DNA of 32,741 bases, from NCBI GenBank assembly GCA_012728565.1, contig JAAYEV010000097.1:1-32741 (forward strand), written 5' to 3'. The translations under genes were made by a program, and so were the position numbers. The notes below the pieces were generated by a model. The model saw only the letters and a list, made by a program, of their open reading frames with translations, was not told where the DNA came from and made no database searches. Below are positions 1,868 through 31,653 of the stretch, one piece after another. This DNA is from Clostridiales bacterium (lineage in GTDB: Bacteria > Bacillota > Clostridia > Ch29). Positions within the stretch are counted from its first letter, which is position 1. Each line of letters begins with the position of its first letter.

Positions 1868-3958
1868 ATGAAAAAAGTTCCGGATTTTTTCGGCAGCATG
1901 GTATTTAACGATACGGTAATGCAGTCAAGGCTGCCGAAGGATACTTACAGGGCACTGAAAAAGGCTATAGCACAGGGCACGCATTTGGAACTCGACGTTG
2001 CAAATATCGTGGCCAATGCCATGAAGGACTGGGCCATTGAAAAAGGCGCCACCCATTTCACGCACTGGTTCCAGCCAATGACCGGTATTACCGCCGAAAA
2101 ACACGACAGCTTCATAGCCCCCGATAGGGACGGCAGGATTATCATGGAGTTTTCGGGCAAAGAGCTGGTGCGCGGAGAACCGGACGCGTCAAGCTTCCCC
2201 TCCGGGGGACTGCGTGCAACCTTTGAGGCCAGGGGATACACCATTTGGGATACCTCCTCCTACGCTTTTATCAAGGACGGTACGCTGTACATCCCCACCG
2301 CCTTTTGCTCATACAGCGGCGAGGCGCTGGACAAGAAAACACCGCTTCTGCGCTCCATGGAGGCAATAAACAAGCAGGCCCTCCGTATAATCCGCCTTTT
2401 CGGCAACACTTCAGTGAAGCGTGTAACCACGACAGTGGGCGCAGAGCAGGAATACTTCCTTATTGACAAGGAGGTCTACTTGAAGCGCCCCGATTTGGTT
2501 TACACCGGCCGGACACTGTTCGGGGCACGACCTCCCAAGGGCCAGGAGATGGAGGACCATTACTTCGTAAGCCTCAAACCCCGCGTATCCGCTTTCATGC
2601 GGGAACTGGAGGAAGAACTTTGGAAGCTGGGCGTGCTTGCCAAAACCAAGCATAACGAGGTGGCCCCGGCCCAGCATGAGCTGGCTCCCATTTTCACCAC
2701 CGTCAATATCGCCACCGACCACAACCAACTGACCATGGAACTTATGAAAAGCGTCGCCAACAGGCATGGCTTGGCCTGCCTACTGCATGAAAAACCCTTT
2801 GCCGGAGTAAACGGCAGCGGAAAGCATATAAACTGGTCCATATGCACGGATAAGGGAACAAACCTCCTGGAGCCGGGCGAAACGCCCCACGAAAACATGC
2901 AGTTTTTGCTGTTCCTGACCGCCGTCATCAAGGCGGTGGACGAATACCAGGACCTGCTTCGAGTGTCGGTGGCCAACGCGGGAAACGACCACCGGCTGGG
3001 TGCGAACGAAGCACCCCCGGCGATTGTGTCCATGTTTTTGGGCGACGAACTGACGGAAATCCTCGAAGCCATTGAAACAGGCACCGTTTACCATGGCAAG
3101 CAGAAGAACCAAATGGAAATCGGCGCGACGGTACTTCCGCGTTTTCCGAAGGACATTACCGACCGCAACCGCACCTCGCCCTTTGCCTTTACCGGCAACA
3201 AGTTTGAATTCCGTATGCTGGGCTCCGCCTTCTCCATCGCAGGACCCAACATAGTGCTTAATACCATCGTGGCCGAGGTTCTGCGCGAGTTTGCCGATAC
3301 GCTGGAAAACGCAGAAGACTTTAATGATGACCTCGCGGCTCTGATTAAGAAAACCATCCGTGAACACAAGCGAATCATATTCAATGGCAACAACTATTCC
3401 GAGCAGTGGGTGCGGGAAGCGGAAAAACGGGGCCTGTCCAACCTCAAAAACACCGTTGAAGCATTACCGGCCTTTGTGGCGCAAAAAAGCATTGATGTAT
3501 TCACCCGGCACAATGTGCTGACCGAAACGGAAATCCGCTCTAGGTATGAAATACTGCTGGAGAATTACTGTAAAACACTGCGCATTGAAGCGCTTACGAT
3601 GGTGGACATGGTTAAGAAGGAAATCATCCCCGCTTGTATCAGCTATCAAAACGAGCTATTGCAGCTTCTTAGGGGCAAAAAGTCGTGCGGAGATTACGAC
3701 TTCTGCCTGGAGCAGCACTACCTTGAAAGGATTTCCAAGCTGTCCGCCTGCCTGCTTAAAAACCTGGACGCCCTTGAAAACGCGGTGCTGAAAACAAAGG
3801 ACGAAAGCGATGCGCTCACCCAGGCAGGGTTTTACCGTGACCATGTGCTTGGGGCCATGTCGGAGCTTAGGCTGGTTGTCGATGAGCTTGAAACCATTGT
3901 ACCCAAAAAGTATTGGCCGCTGCCCACCTATTCCGAGATGCTTTACAGTGTATACTAG
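1868..3958 (+). CDS. glnN: Glutamine synthetase type III
   Basis: About 697 aa; [82 protein letters not shown] at 1868 with AGGGGTG upstream is preferred over the GTG at 1859. Confidence 0.95.
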
Positions 3959-4007
3959 ATGGCATTGATTATGGGCTTATATTAACAATCAAGGAAGGTA
4001 TATAAAC

Positions 4008-4628
4008 ATGATTGGAATAATCGACTACAAGGCCGGCAATGCGCCCAGCGTCTTAAATGCGCTGCACAGGCTTGGCGTCCCATCGTCCCTGGTATCTTCT
4101 CCCGACGGGCTCCGGGCGGCAGCGGGCATAATACTGCCCGGGGTCGGTTCGGCCAAGGCAACCATGGATTCCTTAAAAGATATGGGCTTTATTGATGCGC
4201 TGGAGGAAAGGGTTCTTAAGGAAGGGATTCCTTTCCTAGGCATCTGCGTCGGCTTCCAGGTCCTGTTTGAACACAGCGATGAAGGGGATGTTGACTGCCT
4301 GGGCTGGATGCCCGGGGAAGTTAAGAAATACCCGGAAGATATGGTGCGTGTGCCGCAGATGGGATGGAACGAAGTCAAATTCGTCAGGAGACATGCTATT
4401 TTATCTTCCCTGAATGACTCCGAGTTCTTTTATTTTGTAAATTCCTATTATGTTATTCCCCGGGATGAAAACATTGTGCTGGCAAAAACCCGGTATGGCA
4501 TAGAGTTCTGCTCAATGGCCGCGTATAAAAACATGTGTGCCGCCCAGTTCCATGTTGAAAAAAGCGGTGCGGTAGGGTTAAAGGTCCTGAGAAATTTTGC
4601 GTGGATGGCAGGTGGTAAACATTGCTGA
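4008..4628 (+). CDS. HisH-like glutamine amidotransferase subunit (paralog outside a his operon)
   Basis: MIGIIDYKAGNAPSVLNAL, ILPGVGS, nucleophile GICVGFQ, VPQMGWNEV, YFVNSYYV, QFHVEKS; SD AAGGAAGG upstream. Confidence 0.88.
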   Translation: MIGIIDYKAGNAPSVLNALHRLGVPSSLVSSPDGLRAAAGIILPGVGSAKATMDSLKDMGFIDALEERVLKEGIPFLGICVGFQVLFEHSDEGDVDCLGWMPGEVKKYPEDMVRVPQMGWNEVKFVRRHAILSSLNDSEFFYFVNSYYVIPRDENIVLAKTRYGIEFCSMAAYKNMCAAQFHVEKSGAVGLKVLRNFAWMAGGKHC

Positions 4629-5428
4629 CAAAAAGGTTAATAGCCTGCTTTGACGTAAAAGAAGGCATGGTGACAAAGGCGCACAAATTTCAAAACAATA
4701 TAGATATTGACACCGCCGAGAACATTGCCCGCAGGATATACCGGGACCAGATCGATGAAGTAATATTCTACGATATTACGGCCAGCTCCGAAAAGAGAAA
4801 AATTGACCTTGGAACGGTAAAAAGGGTTGCCGCGCATGTCTTTGTCCCCTTCACCGTTGGCGGGGGTATTAAGAATCTTAACGACATGTATGACGTATTA
4901 AAAGCGGGTGCCGAAAAAATTAGCATAGATTCAATGGCGGTACGCAATCCGGGTATCATCCGGGAGGGAGCCGCCGCTTTTGGCCGACAGTGCATAGTTC
5001 TCAGCATGCAGGTCAAACGTGTTGCAAAGACTCCAAGAATCCCTAGCGGATACGAGATTGCAATTGACGGGGCCAGGGTATTTACAGGCATGGACGCCGT
5101 GGAATGGGCCAAGAGGGGAGAAGACCTCGGGGCCGGGGAAATATGTGTGAACAGCATCGACAGGGATGGTACCCATTCCGGGTATGACATAGAAATAACC
5201 TCGTTGATTAGTGATAATGTAAACATCCCTGTAATTGCGTCCGGGGGTGCCGGCAATCCCGGTCATGTGGCCGAGGTGTTTCTAAAAACCGGTGCATCGG
5301 CGGCGATAATCAGTTCCATGTTGTATTCGCCCGCCATAGGCAGGAATTACTCGGTAAAAGAGGTTAAGGAAAAACTCATGGAATGCGGTATCCCTGTCAG
5401 GCCATGGATTCAAGATTATTCCGTTTAG
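4622..5428 (+). CDS. HisF-like cyclase subunit (imidazole glycerol phosphate synthase-like)
   Basis: TTG start overlapping the HisH-like stop by 7 nt; KRLIACFDVKEG, FYDITASSEKR, FTVGGGI, NSIDRDGTHSGYD, PVIASGGAG. The second catalytic Asp position reads Q (IVLSMQVKRV). Confidence 0.88.
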   Translation: MLTKRLIACFDVKEGMVTKAHKFQNNIDIDTAENIARRIYRDQIDEVIFYDITASSEKRKIDLGTVKRVAAHVFVPFTVGGGIKNLNDMYDVLKAGAEKISIDSMAVRNPGIIREGAAAFGRQCIVLSMQVKRVAKTPRIPSGYEIAIDGARVFTGMDAVEWAKRGEDLGAGEICVNSIDRDGTHSGYDIEITSLISDNVNIPVIASGGAGNPGHVAEVFLKTGASAAIISSMLYSPAIGRNYSVKEVKEKLMECGIPVRPWIQDYSV

Positions 5429-5506: not shown

Positions 5507-6082
5507 TTAAGGTAAAACGGAGCCCTTGGTTTTCTTGGATGTGTCATATCCCAGTTCATAGTACTGGTTGTTGTTGAACTCAAAGGTCTTGATTACGTCA
5601 AGCCCAAGCTTGTTGACATGGGCATTATAAGACCTGTGGTTTATTTGGTTTATGAAAGTGATTAAAATGGGGTACCTTTCACTCATCTGGATTCTTGAAA
5701 ATTCAAAGATATTCTGAAGAACCCCGGAGCCGCGGTATTCTTTATCTATGCAAATTGGCCCGTATTGGTAGGAATTATAGACGGAAAGGGTTTGCCCCAG
5801 GTACCTTACGTTGGGCAAATCCTCTATCATGTACTGAAACAGCGGCCACTGCGCCCAGTACTGCCAGGATGCGGCCATAACGTAAGCCACAATCTTATCC
5901 CCGTCACAGGCTACAGCAAGCCCCTGTTCTTTTTCGATCAGCTCCTTGAACTGTTCTTCGGTAAACAGCGTTGTGACAAATCCATCCGGTTTGTCCTCTT
6001 CGCTTATCGTCGATATATGGTATTTTTGCTGCAATTTCGAAACACCCGGTATATCCTTAAGTGTCGCATTTCTATACTGCAT
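5507..6082 (-). CDS. GNAT-family N-acetyltransferase
   Basis: YGPICIDKEYRGSGVLQNIFEFS...NQINHRSYNAHVNKLGLDVIKTFEFNNNQYYELGYDT; SD GGAGGAAA before ATG. Confidence 0.8.
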   Translation of the reverse strand: MQYRNATLKDIPGVSKLQQKYHISTISEEDKPDGFVTTLFTEEQFKELIEKEQGLAVACDGDKIVAYVMAASWQYWAQWPLFQYMIEDLPNVRYLGQTLSVYNSYQYGPICIDKEYRGSGVLQNIFEFSRIQMSERYPILITFINQINHRSYNAHVNKLGLDVIKTFEFNNNQYYELGYDTSKKTKGSVLP

Positions 6083-6139
6083 AGCATTTCCTCCTCGGCA
6101 TAAGGGATAATGTTAAACTGGATTTGGCTGGAAAGAAAC

Positions 6140-6179
6140 AACCGCCTCCGGTTTAGATTATCATAAACCGGAGGCGGTT
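6140..6179 (-). terminator. Perfect 16-bp hairpin, probable terminator of the gatCAB operon
   Basis: AACCGCCTCCGGTTTA (6140-6155) / TAAACCGGAGGCGGTT (6164-6179), loop GATTATCA; minus-strand 3' flank GTTTCTTTCC is U-rich. Confidence 0.65.
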
Positions 6180-6212
6180 TCAACACGGTAGAACCTCCTC
6201 CTGGTACATCTC

Positions 6213-25629: not shown

Positions 25630-26883
25630 TCATTTTGCTATGTCCTTTCTGTACTGAACGCCTTCAAAGTACACCCTGGCCGCGGAGCGGTACGCCTTTT
25701 CCCGGGCCTCTTCCCTGTCGGAGCCCAGGGCGGCTATTCCCAGTACCCTGCCCCCGTTGGTATAGTGCCTGCCGTCCTTAAGAACGGTCCCCGCATGGAA
25801 AACCAAAACCCCGTCCCGGTCAACGGTGTCAAGGCCCTCAATGGGAACTCCCTTTTTGTAGCTGCCGGGGTAACCGCCGGAGGCCAGCACCACGCATACA
25901 CAGGACTTGTCCGACCAGCGGATTTGCTGACTGGACAGCCTTCCGTCCACCACCGAATTCATAACTTCCACAAGGTCGCAGTCAAGCCGCGGCAGTATTA
26001 CCTGGGTTTCGGGGTCCCCGAAACGGCAGTTGAATTCCAAAATTTTTATGCCGTTCCGGGTTACCATAAGCCCGAAGTACAGGACGCCTTTGTACTCAAT
26101 GCCTTCACGGTTCAAGGCCTCAAGAACGGGGAGCATTATATCGTTTTTGAACCGGCGCTCTATGTCGGGAGTATAAACGTCGTTGGGGGAGAAGGTTCCC
26201 ATACCGCCGGTATTGGGTCCCCTGTCGCCGTCGAAAATTCTCTTATAGTCCCTGGCGCTTTCCATCGGAACAATGGTTTTCCCGTCCACAAAACACAGCA
26301 TGGTCATCTCGGTGCCTTCCAGGAACTCCTCCACCAGCACCCTGTCGCCGGCACTGCCGAACTTTTTATCCATCATAATCTCCCTAAGGGCCGCCTCGGC
26401 TTCCGCCCTGTCCTCGGCTATAATAACGCCTTTTCCTGCCGCTAAACCGTCTGCCTTTATCACCACCGGGAAACCGAACACATCCACCTGCTCCACCGCC
26501 CGGTCGTAATCGGTGAACACCCTAAAGTCTCCGGTGGGAATACCGTGCCTTCTCATGAACTCCTTTGCAAAAACCTTGCTCCCTTCCAAGCGGGCGGCCC
26601 CGGCCTTGGGACCAAAGACCCTGGACCCTTGTTTTTCAAACTCGTCGGCAATCCCCGCCACAAGGGGTGCCTCCGGGCCCACCACCGTCAGGTCAATACT
26701 CTCTTTTTTGGCAAACCCGGCAAGGGCCTTTATGTCGGTGTCCTTTATGTCCACGCACTCCGCTATTTCCGCGATGCCGCCGTTGCCGGGGGCAGCGTAG
26801 ATTTTTTCCACGAGGGGGCTTTGGGCAATCTTCCACGCGAGGGTGTGCTCTCTACCCCCGCTGCCCACAATAAGTACTTTCAT
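25630..26883 (-). CDS. purD: Phosphoribosylamine-glycine ligase
   Basis: MKVLIVGSGGREHTLAWK, FPVVIKADGLAAGKGV, GPNTGGMGTFSP, LEFNCRFGDPETQ; SD AAAGGAGTG. Confidence 0.97.
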   Translation of the reverse strand: MKVLIVGSGGREHTLAWKIAQSPLVEKIYAAPGNGGIAEIAECVDIKDTDIKALAGFAKKESIDLTVVGPEAPLVAGIADEFEKQGSRVFGPKAGAARLEGSKVFAKEFMRRHGIPTGDFRVFTDYDRAVEQVDVFGFPVVIKADGLAAGKGVIIAEDRAEAEAALREIMMDKKFGSAGDRVLVEEFLEGTEMTMLCFVDGKTIVPMESARDYKRIFDGDRGPNTGGMGTFSPNDVYTPDIERRFKNDIMLPVLEALNREGIEYKGVLYFGLMVTRNGIKILEFNCRFGDPETQVILPRLDCDLVEVMNSVVDGRLSSQQIRWSDKSCVCVVLASGGYPGSYKKGVPIEGLDTVDRDGVLVFHAGTVLKDGRHYTNGGRVLGIAALGSDREEAREKAYRSAARVYFEGVQYRKDIAK

Positions 26884-26907
26884 ATCCGCACTCCTTTCTA
26901 TTATGGA

Positions 26908-26979
26908 ATGGGGACACTTATCCCACTTCACAATTGAATGTCCTCTAAGCGCATATCAAATCAAAAGAACCGTCCCCAT
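26908..26979. repeat. REP-like inverted-repeat element in the purH-purD gap
   Basis: ATGGGGAC (26908-26915) / GTCCCCAT (26972-26979); contains AAAAGAACCGTCCCC as in the element at 6337-6365. Confidence 0.55.
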
Positions 26980-26989
26980 GATTACATGA

Positions 26990-28531
26990 TTAGTGTTTGA
27001 AGTGCCTCATGCCGGTGAACACCATGGCTATTCCCAGCCTGTCCGCCGCCTGTATGGATTCTTCATCCTTCAGCGAGCCCCCCGGCTGTATTATAGCCTT
27101 GATACCGGCCTTTGCCGCCGCTTCCACGCAGTCGGGGAAGGGGAAGAATGCATCCGATGCCATTACAGCCCCCTTAAGGTCCTTCCTTGACTGCCTGATG
27201 GCGTTTTCCACCGCCCAAATCCTGTTTACCTGGCCGGGACCTATTCCCAGCGTCTGCCCGTCCTTTGCCAGCACTATGCCGTTGGACTTGATGTGTTTTA
27301 CCACCCTCCACGCGAACAGCAGGTCACCCAGTGTTTCCGCATCGGGTTTTTCCCGGGTGACAACCTTCAGGTCGTCGAGCAGCAGCAGGTCGCTGTCCTG
27401 GACCAGGAGGCCGCCGTTCACCTTCTTAAGGTCCATCATCGAGCTGCTCCTTACACCCGCTATGTTGTCCAGCTTAAGTATCCTTATGTTCTTCTTGCTC
27501 TTTAGTATTTCCAGCGCTCCTTCGGTATAGGACGGGGCCACAACTATCTCTATGAATATATCGTTAATTTCCTTTGCCGTTTTTTCATCCACTTCGCAGT
27601 TGGCCGCGACGATACCGCCAAATATGGAAACCGGGTCCGCCTGGTAGGCCTTCTGCCAGGCCTCATACACGGTGTCTCCCATTCCCACGCCGCAGGGATT
27701 TGTATGCTTAACCCCTATAACCACCGGTTTCGTCGGTTCGAACTCCTTCAAAAGGTCCAGGGCACCATTGGTATCATTAATATTATTGAACGAAAGCTCC
27801 TTGCCGTGCAGCTGCTGCGCTTCCACAAGGGACCCTTCCCTTTTTCCTATTTCCCTGTAGAAGGCAGCCCTCTGGTGCGGGTTTTCCCCGTAACGGAGGT
27901 CCTGGACCTTTTCATAGGTCAAGGTTAGGTAATTTGGGAAATCTACGCCTTTTTTGCGGCTGAAGTAATCGGTAATAAGCGCGTCGTAATGGGCGGTGTG
28001 CATGAACACCTTGGCACAGAGTTCAAACTTGGTCTCCAGCGATACCTCGCCCTTTTCCCTTAGCTCCTTCAGGATGCTGCCGTAATCCGCCGGGTCCACC
28101 ACCACCGCCACATCCTGGTAGTTTTTGGCCGCGGCCCTCAGCATGGTAGGCCCGCCTATGTCTATGTTCTCAATGGCCTCCTCCAGGCTGACGCCCGGTT
28201 TTTGTATGGTTTCTTTAAAGGGGTACAGGTTTATAACCACCAGGTCAATGGGCTTTATGTTAAGCTCTTCAAGCTGCTTCATGTGCTGGCAGTTATCCCT
28301 CTTGGCAAGCAGCCCGGCGTGAATGTTGGGGTGAAGCGTTTTCACCCTTCCGTCCAGGCATTCGGGGAAACCCGTGACCTCCGATATAGAGGTAACGGTT
28401 ATTCCGGCTTCCTCCAATACCCTGGCGGTTCCGCCGGTTGAAATTACTTCAAAGCCCAACTGTTCCAGTCCCTTTGCCAGTTCCACTATGCCTTCCTTGT
28501 TTGAAACGCTGATCAACGCTCTCTTTCGCAT
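26990..28531 (-). CDS. purH: Bifunctional AICAR transformylase/IMP cyclohydrolase
   Basis: [84 protein letters not shown]. Confidence 0.97.
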
Positions 28532-28586: not shown

Positions 28587-29219
28587 TCAATCCGCCTTAA
28601 TCCATACCCTTCTTCCTTCTATTTTAAGGCAGTCCCTGCAGTACAGGTCCACCGCCCGGGGAAGCAAAAGGTGTTCAACCTCCAGCACCCTTTCGGCAAG
28701 GCTTTCCACCGTGTCCTCCGGCAGCACTTCCACCGCCTGCTGCAGTATTATCGGCCCGGTATCGGTACCTTCGTCCACGAAGTGCACCGTGGCGCCGGTG
28801 ACCTTCACGCCGTATTCCAGCGCTTCCCTGTGCACCCTCTCGCCGTAATATCCCTTTCCGCAGAAGGAGGGTATAAGCGATGGATGGACGTTTATTATGG
28901 CATCTTTAAAGGACCTGACAAATTCCGCTGTCAAAATCCTCATATACCCCGCCAGCACCACCAGGTCTACTTGTCTTTTTCTAAGCTGTTCTATTAATTC
29001 CAGGTTATACTCCTCCCGGCCCGGGAAGGCCGCAGGGTTTATCCACAGCGCCTCTATGCCGCTTGCCCTTGCCCTCTCCAGCGCATAGGCCTTCGGGTTG
29101 TCCGAAACCACCAGCCTAAGGGCCGCATTCCTGACCCTGCCGGATTTTATTCCGTCCATAACCGCTTGCAGGTTGGTACCCCTGCCGGACGCCAGCACTG
29201 CTATCCTTTTTATGGCCAT
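28587..29219 (-). CDS. purN: Phosphoribosylglycinamide formyltransferase
   Basis: [59 protein letters not shown]. Confidence 0.96.
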
Positions 29220-30238
29220 AGTTTTATTCCTCCGGTTCCCGGGGATATACGCCCTATCACCACGGCGCCGTCGCTTTGCAGACTTTCAAGCAGTATTTCC
29301 GCCTGCCCCGGGTCCGCCGCCATGACGAGGCCTATTCCCATATTGAAGGTTCTGAACATTTCCTGCTGCCCGATACCGCCCCGGTGCTGGATGAACTTAA
29401 ACACCTCCGGTACCTTCCAGCGGTCCGGGTAAATATCCGCCCTTAATCCGTCGGGTATTATCCTGGGAATGTTCTCAAAGAACCCGCCGCCGGTAATATG
29501 GGCCACACCCTTTACATCGGCAGTTTTCACCGCCTTCAATACCTGTTTAACATAAATCCTGGTGGGCTTTAAGAGTTCCTCGCCGAGGGAGCAGCCGAAG
29601 TCCTCCACATAGGTTTGGACAGACATACCCTCCTTTTCGAACAATACTTTCCTGACCAGCGAATAGCCGTTGCTGTGAAGTCCCGAGGAGGGCAGGCCCA
29701 CCAATAGGTCCCCCTCCTTAATACTGCTGCCGTCTATTATACTTTCCCGGTCTACGATGCCCACCGCAAAGCCCGCCAGGTCGTACTCGCCGGGGCTGTA
29801 AAAGCCGGGCATTTCCGCCGTTTCACCGCCTATAAGGGCGCACCCGGCCTCACAGCAGCCCTCGGATATACCCTTTACAATGTCCGCAACCTTTTCCGGC
29901 TCCAGTTTCCCGGTGGCTATATAGTCCAGGAAAAATAACGGTTTTGCACCCATGCAGGCGATATCGTTCACGCACATGGCCACGCAGTCTATGCCTATGG
30001 TATCGTGCCTGTCCATCATAAAAGCAATTTTCAGCTTGGTACCCACGCCGTCGGTACCCGACACCAGCACCGGTTCCCTGTACCCGGTAAGGTCTGGCAT
30101 GAAGGCTGCGCCAAATCCCCCTATGCCGCTTATGACCCCCGGAGTACGAGTTTTCGCAACGTGCCCCTTCATGAGCTCCACCGCCTTGGCGCCGGCGTCG
30201 ATGTCCACCCCGGAATCCCTGTAGGTCATCCTCTCCAT
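29210..30238 (-). CDS. purM: Phosphoribosylformylglycinamidine cyclo-ligase
   Basis: [67 protein letters not shown]. Confidence 0.97.
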
Positions 30239-30273: not shown

Positions 30274-31653
30274 TTACTTCTCAATCGGGTAGTTACCGCT
30301 GAAGCACGCGTGGCAGTACCCGGTACTTTCCCCTACCGCCTCCAGCAGTCCCTCCAGGCTCAAGTACCCAAGGCTGTCCGCCTCTATTTTGTCCCTTATC
30401 TCCTCAACACTGAGGTTTGCGCCCACCAAATTCTCCCTGGTCGGCGTATCTATCCCAAAGTAGCAGGGGTGCTGTACCGGCGGGGAACTCACCCTGAAAT
30501 GCACTTCCACCGCGCCGGCGTTCTTCAGCATCCTGACCAGGTTGCGGCTGGTGGTACCCCTTACTATGGAATCATCCACCATTACAACCCTCTTGCCCTT
30601 TACCATGTCCCCCAGTACATTCAGCTTTAACGCTACGCTTATCTCCCGCTGCCTCTGCCTTGGCTGAATGAAGGTCCTGCCCACGTACCGGTTTTTTACC
30701 AGTCCTTCCATAAAGGGAATCCCGGAAGCCTCCGAATAGCCTATGGCCGCCGCGGTACCGGAGTCCGGCACCGAAATCACGATATCGGCATCAGCCGGGC
30801 ACTCCCTGTAAAGGTTGACTCCCGCCCTGCGGCGGGCCATATAAATATTTTTGCCTGCCATTACGCTGTCCGGCCTGCCGAAGTATATGAACTCAAACAC
30901 GCAGAGGTTGTTAGTCCTGGGCCCGTGGTAGTAAAAACTTCTAATACCTTCCCGGTCAATAACCACTATTTCTCCCGGCTCAACGTCCCTTAAAAGCTTT
31001 GCCCCTACCGTGTCAAAGGCGCAGCTTTCAGATGAAAGCATGTAAAAACCGTCCTTTCTGCCGATGCTTAAGGGGCGTATCCCGTTGGGGTCCCTCACCC
31101 CTATCAGCTTGTCACCGGTCATAATTATAAGGGCATAGGCTCCCCTTACGCAGTCCATGGTTTCCAGGACGGCCTCCAGGATGTCGCCGCGGTCCTTTCT
31201 CGCTACCAAGTTTGCAATCACTTCGCTGTCCACGGTGGTTTGGAAAATTACACCCTCCTGCTCCAGTTCTCCCCGCAGCTTATCCGCGTTAACCAGGCTG
31301 CCGTTATGGGCCATCGCAAGGCTGCCGTTCCTGTATTTTACCACCAGCGGCTGGGAGTTTATGACGTGGCTGTCCCCGATGGTGGAATACCTAACATGGC
31401 CGCAGGAAATACATCCCTCCAGGCTCTCCAGTATTGAGTCGTCGAACACCTCCGACACAAGGCCCATCTGTTTGTAATACTTGATTTTGCCTCCTGCCGC
31501 CACCGCGATACCGGCGCTTTCCTGGCCCCGGTGCTGCAGCGCGTACAGCCCGTAATAGGTTGTCCTGGAAATGTCCATGCCTTCTTTTCCGTATATCCCG
31601 AAAACGCCGCATTCTTCATGCAGCTTGTCGTCCGCTACTGGTCCATGATACAT
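30274..31653 (-). CDS. purF: Amidophosphoribosyltransferase
   Basis: EECGVFGIYG, YYGLYALQHRGQESAGIAV, GHVRYSTIG, VMVDDSIVRGTTSRNLVRML. Confidence 0.97.
   Translation of the reverse strand: MYHGPVADDKLHEECGVFGIYGKEGMDISRTTYYGLYALQHRGQESAGIAVAAGGKIKYYKQMGLVSEVFDDSILESLEGCISCGHVRYSTIGDSHVINSQPLVVKYRNGSLAMAHNGSLVNADKLRGELEQEGVIFQTTVDSEVIANLVARKDRGDILEAVLETMDCVRGAYALIIMTGDKLIGVRDPNGIRPLSIGRKDGFYMLSSESCAFDTVGAKLLRDVEPGEIVVIDREGIRSFYYHGPRTNNLCVFEFIYFGRPDSVMAGKNIYMARRRAGVNLYRECPADADIVISVPDSGTAAAIGYSEASGIPFMEGLVKNRYVGRTFIQPRQRQREISVALKLNVLGDMVKGKRVVMVDDSIVRGTTSRNLVRMLKNAGAVEVHFRVSSPPVQHPCYFGIDTPTRENLVGANLSVEEIRDKIEADSLGYLSLEGLLEAVGESTGYCHACFSGNYPIEK

Follow-up and report, generated by a model that had tools for sequence, protein, structure and literature searches.

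A glutamine synthetase-linked HisH–HisF pair of a clostridial genome as a probable divergent form of imidazole glycerol phosphate synthase

Organisation of the locus and its leaders

The window, a contig of 32,741 nt analysed over its whole length (C179), belongs to a 2.2-Mb metagenome-assembled genome (MAG) of a Clostridiales bacterium, which is 98% complete with an estimated contamination of 3.99%. It carries a type III glutamine synthetase gene followed by genes of a HisH-like glutaminase and a HisF-like cyclase, here called hisH2 and hisF2; the name HisF2 was coined in this work for the clade of the window HisF. The features considered are as follows.

659–1366, − strand: purC, SAICAR synthetase (profile match), divergent neighbour with a matching leader
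1422–1524, − strand: purC leader, hexaloop hairpin GAAC-AAAGGC-GTTC, long terminator-like stem and T-run
1533–1561, − strand: divergent purC promoter (promoter motif TTGACA-17-TATACT)
1688–1716, + strand: promoter of glnN-hisH2-hisF2, TTGACA-17-TAAAAT, 11 of 12 consensus bases
1728–1743, + strand: candidate antiterminator hairpin ACAGC-AAAGGC-GCTGT, hexaloop with A1 and G4, ANTAR-target-like
1734–1774, + strand: intrinsic terminator of the glnN leader, 15-bp stem and T-run, folding z −3.87
1868–3958, + strand: glnN, type III glutamine synthetase, 696 aa (GSIII_N, Gln-synt_C and Gln-synt_C-ter)
4008–4628, + strand: hisH2, glutaminase subunit (TIGR01855)
4622–5428, + strand: hisF2, cyclase subunit of the Q130 clade, TTG start (best match TIGR00735)
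25630–26931, − strand: purD
26990–28531, − strand: purH
28587–29219, − strand: 210-aa ORF, probably purN (putative)
29210–30238, − strand: purM-type gene
30274–31653, − strand: purF-type amidotransferase gene

A preliminary description of this DNA had reported the three same-strand genes, a 49-nt gap between glnN and hisH2, a 7-nt overlap between hisH2 and hisF2, a TTG start of hisF2 and a strong promoter before glnN. The coordinates, the families and all of these details were confirmed, and the promoter is near-consensus. The ATG at 1868 is favoured as the start of glnN by the ribosome-binding-like sequence AAGGGGTG; a GTG at 1859 is possible. Judging by the gene spacing, glnN, hisH2 and hisF2 would form a single transcript. 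A terminator hairpin between the promoter and glnN had been overlooked, and the divergent purC, which had been noted, is present but gives an incomplete picture, as the window also has purF, purM, purH and purD.

In the glnN leader, the 16-nt hairpin with the AAAGGC loop overlaps the 5′ arm of the terminator, and the two structures are mutually exclusive. The purC leader has a matching hexaloop/terminator arrangement, which was found in none of 20 shuffled windows. Similar leaders are located before glnN in loci L077 and L115, upstream of an asnA–glnN pair in L119 and L143 and, in other loci, before a divergent glutamine synthetase (GS)-type gene and before glmS; besides the window leaders, two were confirmed in genome G100. 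A degenerate hexaloop pattern showed little or no excess over the control in four genomes. Hexaloop sites of the window's own genome that were followed on other contigs included none with a full leader, leaving the two window leaders as the only confirmed ones there. A comparison with Rfam gave no match at the gathering threshold, and the low-threshold matches were chance-like.

The genome has one ANTAR gene (G000:C89), situated between glnA-like and guaA-like genes. According to PMC3369931 and PMC8934654, the RNA targets of ANTAR proteins are hexaloops that have A at position 1 and G at position 4 (A1 and G4); the classical target is composed of two such hairpins, one of which overlaps a terminator, and single-hexaloop binding is reported in PMC8934654. 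Each leader described here has one hexaloop, placed at the very 5′ end and overlapping the terminator, and a second was not seen in either; as this differs from the classical form, the glnN and purC leaders are treated as candidate ANTAR targets. The glnN leader terminator is probably opened by an ANTAR-type protein. HisHF was not found as a member of an ANTAR regulon in the passages of the two papers that were consulted.

Sequence and predicted structure of HisH2 and HisF2

HisH2 scores above the cut-off of the HisH model TIGR01855 (208 versus 105 bits). Its glutaminase triad (Cys80, His182 and Glu184) and the PGVG oxyanion strand (P44–G47) are present, and the triad and oxyanion residues are kept in 64–65 of the 65 aligned sequences. 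The best model for HisF2, TIGR00735, matches just under its cut-off (288 versus 294.55 bits); members of the clade encoded inside his operons are also below this cut-off, at 280–290 bits. The scores of HisF2 are 226 bits with the WbuZ model (cut-off 299.7) and 188 bits with the AglZ/HisF2 model (cut-off 310), where the name HisF2 refers to a protein other than the clade discussed here. The predicted fold of HisF2 is a confident HisF barrel (AlphaFold model, pLDDT 93); its best match in the PDB is HisF-LUCA, with TM-scores of 0.89–0.94 to solved HisF structures.

HisF is a textbook (βα)8 barrel, with D11 and D130 named as its two catalytic aspartates. The HisF2 alignment contained 82 sequences (80 loci, the window and G086), and residues are numbered according to Thermotoga maritima HisF. 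Catalytic Asp130 is replaced by Gln in 82 of the 82 sequences, which also share the changes Asn103 to Asp, Asp98 to Glu, Thr171 to Asn and Ala224 to Ser; Asp11, Lys19, Asp176 and the gate residues R5, E46, K99 and E167 are kept. Since residue 130 is Gln, HisF2 is regarded here as a divergent clade and not as canonical HisF. To our knowledge, D98E has otherwise been described only as an engineered hyperactive mutant. In T. maritima HisF, this change shifts the complex to the active state and increases glutamine turnover (PMC8115485); with Glu98 present throughout the clade, HisF2 thus bears the engineered change naturally. D11 and D130 have been described as catalytic, D130 being the general base, and ammonium salts can serve HisF as nitrogen source in vitro (PMC11350729). 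The loss of D130 in every HisF2 is therefore unexpected for an imidazole glycerol phosphate (IGP) synthase. The lost Asp130 is probably compensated by Asp103, to which the carboxylate may have been relocated. A literature search of partial coverage for HisF without D130 and for his operons without hisH yielded nothing besides Corynebacterium glutamicum.

Distribution, genomic context and probable role in histidine synthesis

A scan of 84,980 genomes revealed 80 close relatives of HisF2. The clade is monophyletic (support 100/99), nested within clostridial HisF and present, mostly in MAGs, in seven phyla: Bacillota, Actinomycetota, Spirochaetota, Planctomycetota, Fibrobacterota, Elusimicrobiota and Deferribacterota. 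The canonical HisF of the window genome groups in the tree with its own genus and family. Loci L101, L121 and L122 carry HisF2 in records that are assigned to Plectonema radiosum and Bifidobacterium breve but look contaminated or misnamed.

HisF2 genes are mostly found outside his operons. In seven loci (L087, L093, L096, L098, L100, L107 and L145), however, hisH2-hisF2 lies within a set of his genes that is complete in other respects, or immediately next to one; canonical hisH and hisF are absent, and each genome has a single HisF and a single HisH. In 33 of the 50 surveyed HisF2 genomes, HisF2 is the sole HisF, and 29 of these 33 have HisB. Genomes G101, G128 and G131 (L183–L185) possess a his operon without both hisH and hisF, together with HisF2. 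Judged by this context, in which the pair is the sole HisH and HisF in or beside his operons, the IGP step of the pathway would be supplied by HisH2-HisF2. Its occurrence within or beside complete his clusters in seven genomes, along with the 33 of 50 genomes where HisF2 is the sole HisF, indicates that the pair is most likely a genuine divergent IGP synthase and not an enzyme for a new substrate.

The neighbourhoods of HisF2 are rich in genes of glutamine and nitrogen metabolism, which account for 85 of the 593 neighbouring genes other than his genes, compared with 3 of 386 in controls (raw counts with respect to phylogeny, as are all counts given here; the control neighbours come mostly from his-gene loci of the surveyed genomes). 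The genes counted, whose families were checked, were carAB, guaA, pyrG, glmS, purF, purL, gatCAB, gltBD, glnA, glnN, asnA, purA, argG and an ANTAR regulator. glnN is near HisF2 in seven loci, and the close relative L077 has the order glnN-gltB-gltD-hisH2-hisF2. At L037:5955-7211 (G086), an F420-0:gamma-glutamyl ligase-type gene is situated between glnN and hisH2. An ATP-PPase/ArgG partner for the amidotransferase, suggested by the G086 synteny, was dropped, argG being located there with argH. IGP synthase releases AICAR, which is consumed by PurH, and PurH encoded in the window would consume the AICAR released by HisH2-HisF2. The preliminary view that the pair channels ammonia derived from glutamine and is linked to nitrogen or purine status is supported by the glutamine-gene neighbourhoods, the common leader of glnN and purC, and purH in the window.

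The window has no further his gene, as had been stated, and a second hisF resides in the his operon of another contig, C46 (hisZ-G-D-C-B-A-F-IE). This operon lacks hisH between hisB and hisA; its HisF is canonical and intact (352 bits). Of the second, canonical hisH/hisF that the preliminary description considered worth looking for, hisF exists, but hisH is present only in the window unit, according to protein and profile searches of the genome. Two congeners have the same hisH-less his operon and no HisH anywhere in the genome, whereas in two further genera of the family hisH is still found at its usual position; hisH was thus probably lost in this genus and, among the species sampled, regained only in the present one, as part of the glnN-linked pair. 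C. glutamicum grows without hisH, which is dispensable there, probably via ammonia-dependent HisF (PMC3896937). Together with the use of ammonium salts by HisF in vitro (PMC11350729), this makes an ammonia-dependent operon HisF plausible, and since the operon keeps HisF with no HisH, the C46 HisF probably works with free ammonia. HisF2 may be redundant in this genome, as the canonical HisF is intact.

The same combination recurs elsewhere. Another HisF accompanies HisF2 in 17 surveyed genomes; one of these extra copies, in G129, is WbuZ-like and adjoins an ATP-PPase-type gene. A second HisH is missing from 14 of the 16 genomes that combine HisF2 with a canonical HisF (15 of 17 if the window genome is included), and 10 of 81 HisF2-free relatives with HisF are without any HisH; a Fisher test of 15/18 versus 10/81, in which the WbuZ-like copy was counted and phylogeny was ignored, gives p of about 1e-8. 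The canonical HisF lies within a hisH-less his operon in eight genomes, including that of the window, and is an orphan in others. Residue 98, which contacts HisH, is Asp in 25 of 25 canonical HisF proteins accompanied by HisH and altered in 9 of 20 that are not, in keeping with an operon HisF that works without HisH. In L157, L160, L163 and L168, from HisF2 genomes, canonical-type hisF orphans outside his operons adjoin a conserved gene of a 224-aa uracil-DNA-glycosylase-like protein. Clostridial his operons with canonical hisF in genomes without hisH are represented by L040, L041 and L172–L178.

If the contig were misbinned, the two-enzyme composition of this genome would be an artefact of assembly, while the findings on the HisF2 family and on its neighbourhoods would remain valid. 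Besides the estimated contamination of the MAG, this explanation draws on the absence of HisH2 and HisF2 from sampled members of the genus and family and on glnN, for which a search of five genomes from this genus or family gave no relative at E ≤ 1e-100. In addition, only the window gene 5507–6082 was found in a sample of congener G001 (931 kb, about 46% of the genome), whose sensitivity was 14 of 32 yardstick genes. This very gene, however, is adjacent to hisF2 and 82.5% identical to its congener counterpart, and a 60-nt hairpin-containing repeat at 6136–6195 has 80% identity to congener positions L335:9299-9358. The 4-mer profile of the contig correlates at 0.955 with that of the native his contig, which is weak evidence of nativeness since binning itself uses composition. 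A HisH-less operon HisF with hisH2F2 elsewhere in the genome is also found in seven other genomes. The odds of misbinning are estimated as roughly one in eight.

About equally improbable is that HisH2 serves the canonical operon HisF in trans, with HisF2 being a poorly active cyclase or a scaffold activating HisH2. Most genomes with both HisF types do have a single HisH, and the canonical HisF of the window genome (L006:3983-4741) has E98, like HisF2 and unlike its HisH-less congeners (D), which might hint at the use of HisH2 in trans. Residue 98 is, however, also degraded in several other HisH-less canonical HisF proteins. Moreover, HisF2 suffices alone in 33 genomes, and the congeners run their his operons without any HisH. 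Least probable is the suggestion of the preliminary description that the pair channels ammonia to a substrate other than PRFAR through its changed active site (Q130, D103): the invariant loss of D130, the co-existing canonical HisF, the usual location outside his operons and some distance from canonical HisF models would fit it, but it is unsupported, as orthologous pairs replace canonical genes in his operons and are the sole HisH and HisF of many genomes keeping the pathway, the genes around the pair encode generic glutamine enzymes, among which no dedicated pathway was recognised, and no WbuX partner above the cut-off was found in the genome.

The reading that we favour, at a probability of about two-thirds, is a horizontally acquired, glutamine-fed IGP synthase tied to glutamine synthesis, existing beside an ammonia-dependent operon HisF. 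What the sequences show is the anatomy of the locus, the protein families and their residues, which genes are present or absent, the neighbourhoods and the leaders; from these we infer the reaction, compensation, regulation and physiological role. The glnN-hisH2-hisF2 operon would have been acquired as a unit of foreign origin. GlnN would make glutamine, HisH2 would hydrolyse it to ammonia, and HisF2 would convert ammonia and PRFAR into imidazole glycerol phosphate and AICAR, as ordinary IGP synthase does. Gln130 would be offset by Asp103, and Glu98 would act as the glutaminase-hyperactivating change of T. maritima. The acquired pair may restore glutamine-dependent histidine synthesis under ammonia scarcity, with the terminator between promoter and operon, which has a counterpart on purC, probably being opened by an ANTAR-type protein. 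A broader proposal is tentative, its chances being somewhat below even: HisF2 may represent a second form of IGP synthase that is widespread but uncurated, in which catalytic Asp103 replaces Asp130 and the glutaminase-hyperactivating Glu98 is built in. Moving together with glutamine genes, this form would serve when ammonia is low and so complement an ammonia-dependent HisF that has no HisH.

Three features, all read from sequence, stand out: the changed catalytic residue, the operon without hisH and the setting among glutamine genes. A clade of seven phyla that lacks D130 in every member examined and apparently does the same job would make the catalytic model of HisF testable by natural variation. 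The locus further draws attention to his operons of clostridial anaerobes that have no hisH, and to a possible hard-wiring of histidine synthesis to the supply of glutamine. As HisF2 falls just under the HisF cut-off, automated calls of histidine auxotrophy are affected.

Comparison with known systems

As with the WbuZ/WbuY and AglZ/HisF2 pairs of sugar amidation, HisH2 and HisF2 are stand-alone HisH/HisF paralogues. Unlike them, the window pair is far below both cut-offs, and the absence of WbuX noted in the preliminary description holds for the whole genome, where only sub-threshold matches exist. The WbuZ-like HisF of L166:3928-6464, which adjoins a WbuX-like ATP-PPase-type gene, is the reverse of HisF2: it has L at D11 and keeps D130, whereas HisF2 keeps D11 and has lost D130.

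The HisH-less operon HisF resembles the ammonia-dependent HisF of C. glutamicum, which needs no HisH in vivo (PMC3896937); hisH is present but dispensable there, whereas the operon described here has lost it, and the congeners have no copy in the genome at all. The leaders are similar to those of the ANTAR nitrogen regulons of PMC3369931 and PMC8934654 in the A1/G4 hexaloop that competes with a terminator, in the nitrogen genes downstream and in the ANTAR gene near GS-type genes; they differ in that two hexaloops are usual there, whereas a single one is seen here, at the extreme 5′ end.

With the IGP synthase HisH-HisF of the T. maritima type (EC 4.3.2.10), the pair shares the fold, glutaminase triad, D11, tunnel-gate residues R5/E46/K99/E167, paired genes and occurrence in his operons. 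HisF2 differs from the T. maritima type in D130Q, N103D, D98E and T171N in all sequences examined, in a TIGR00735 score below the cut-off and in its location, mostly outside his operons and often near glutamine genes. The pair is most likely an overlooked, horizontally spread variant of this standard histidine enzyme, with an altered active site and nitrogen-type control.
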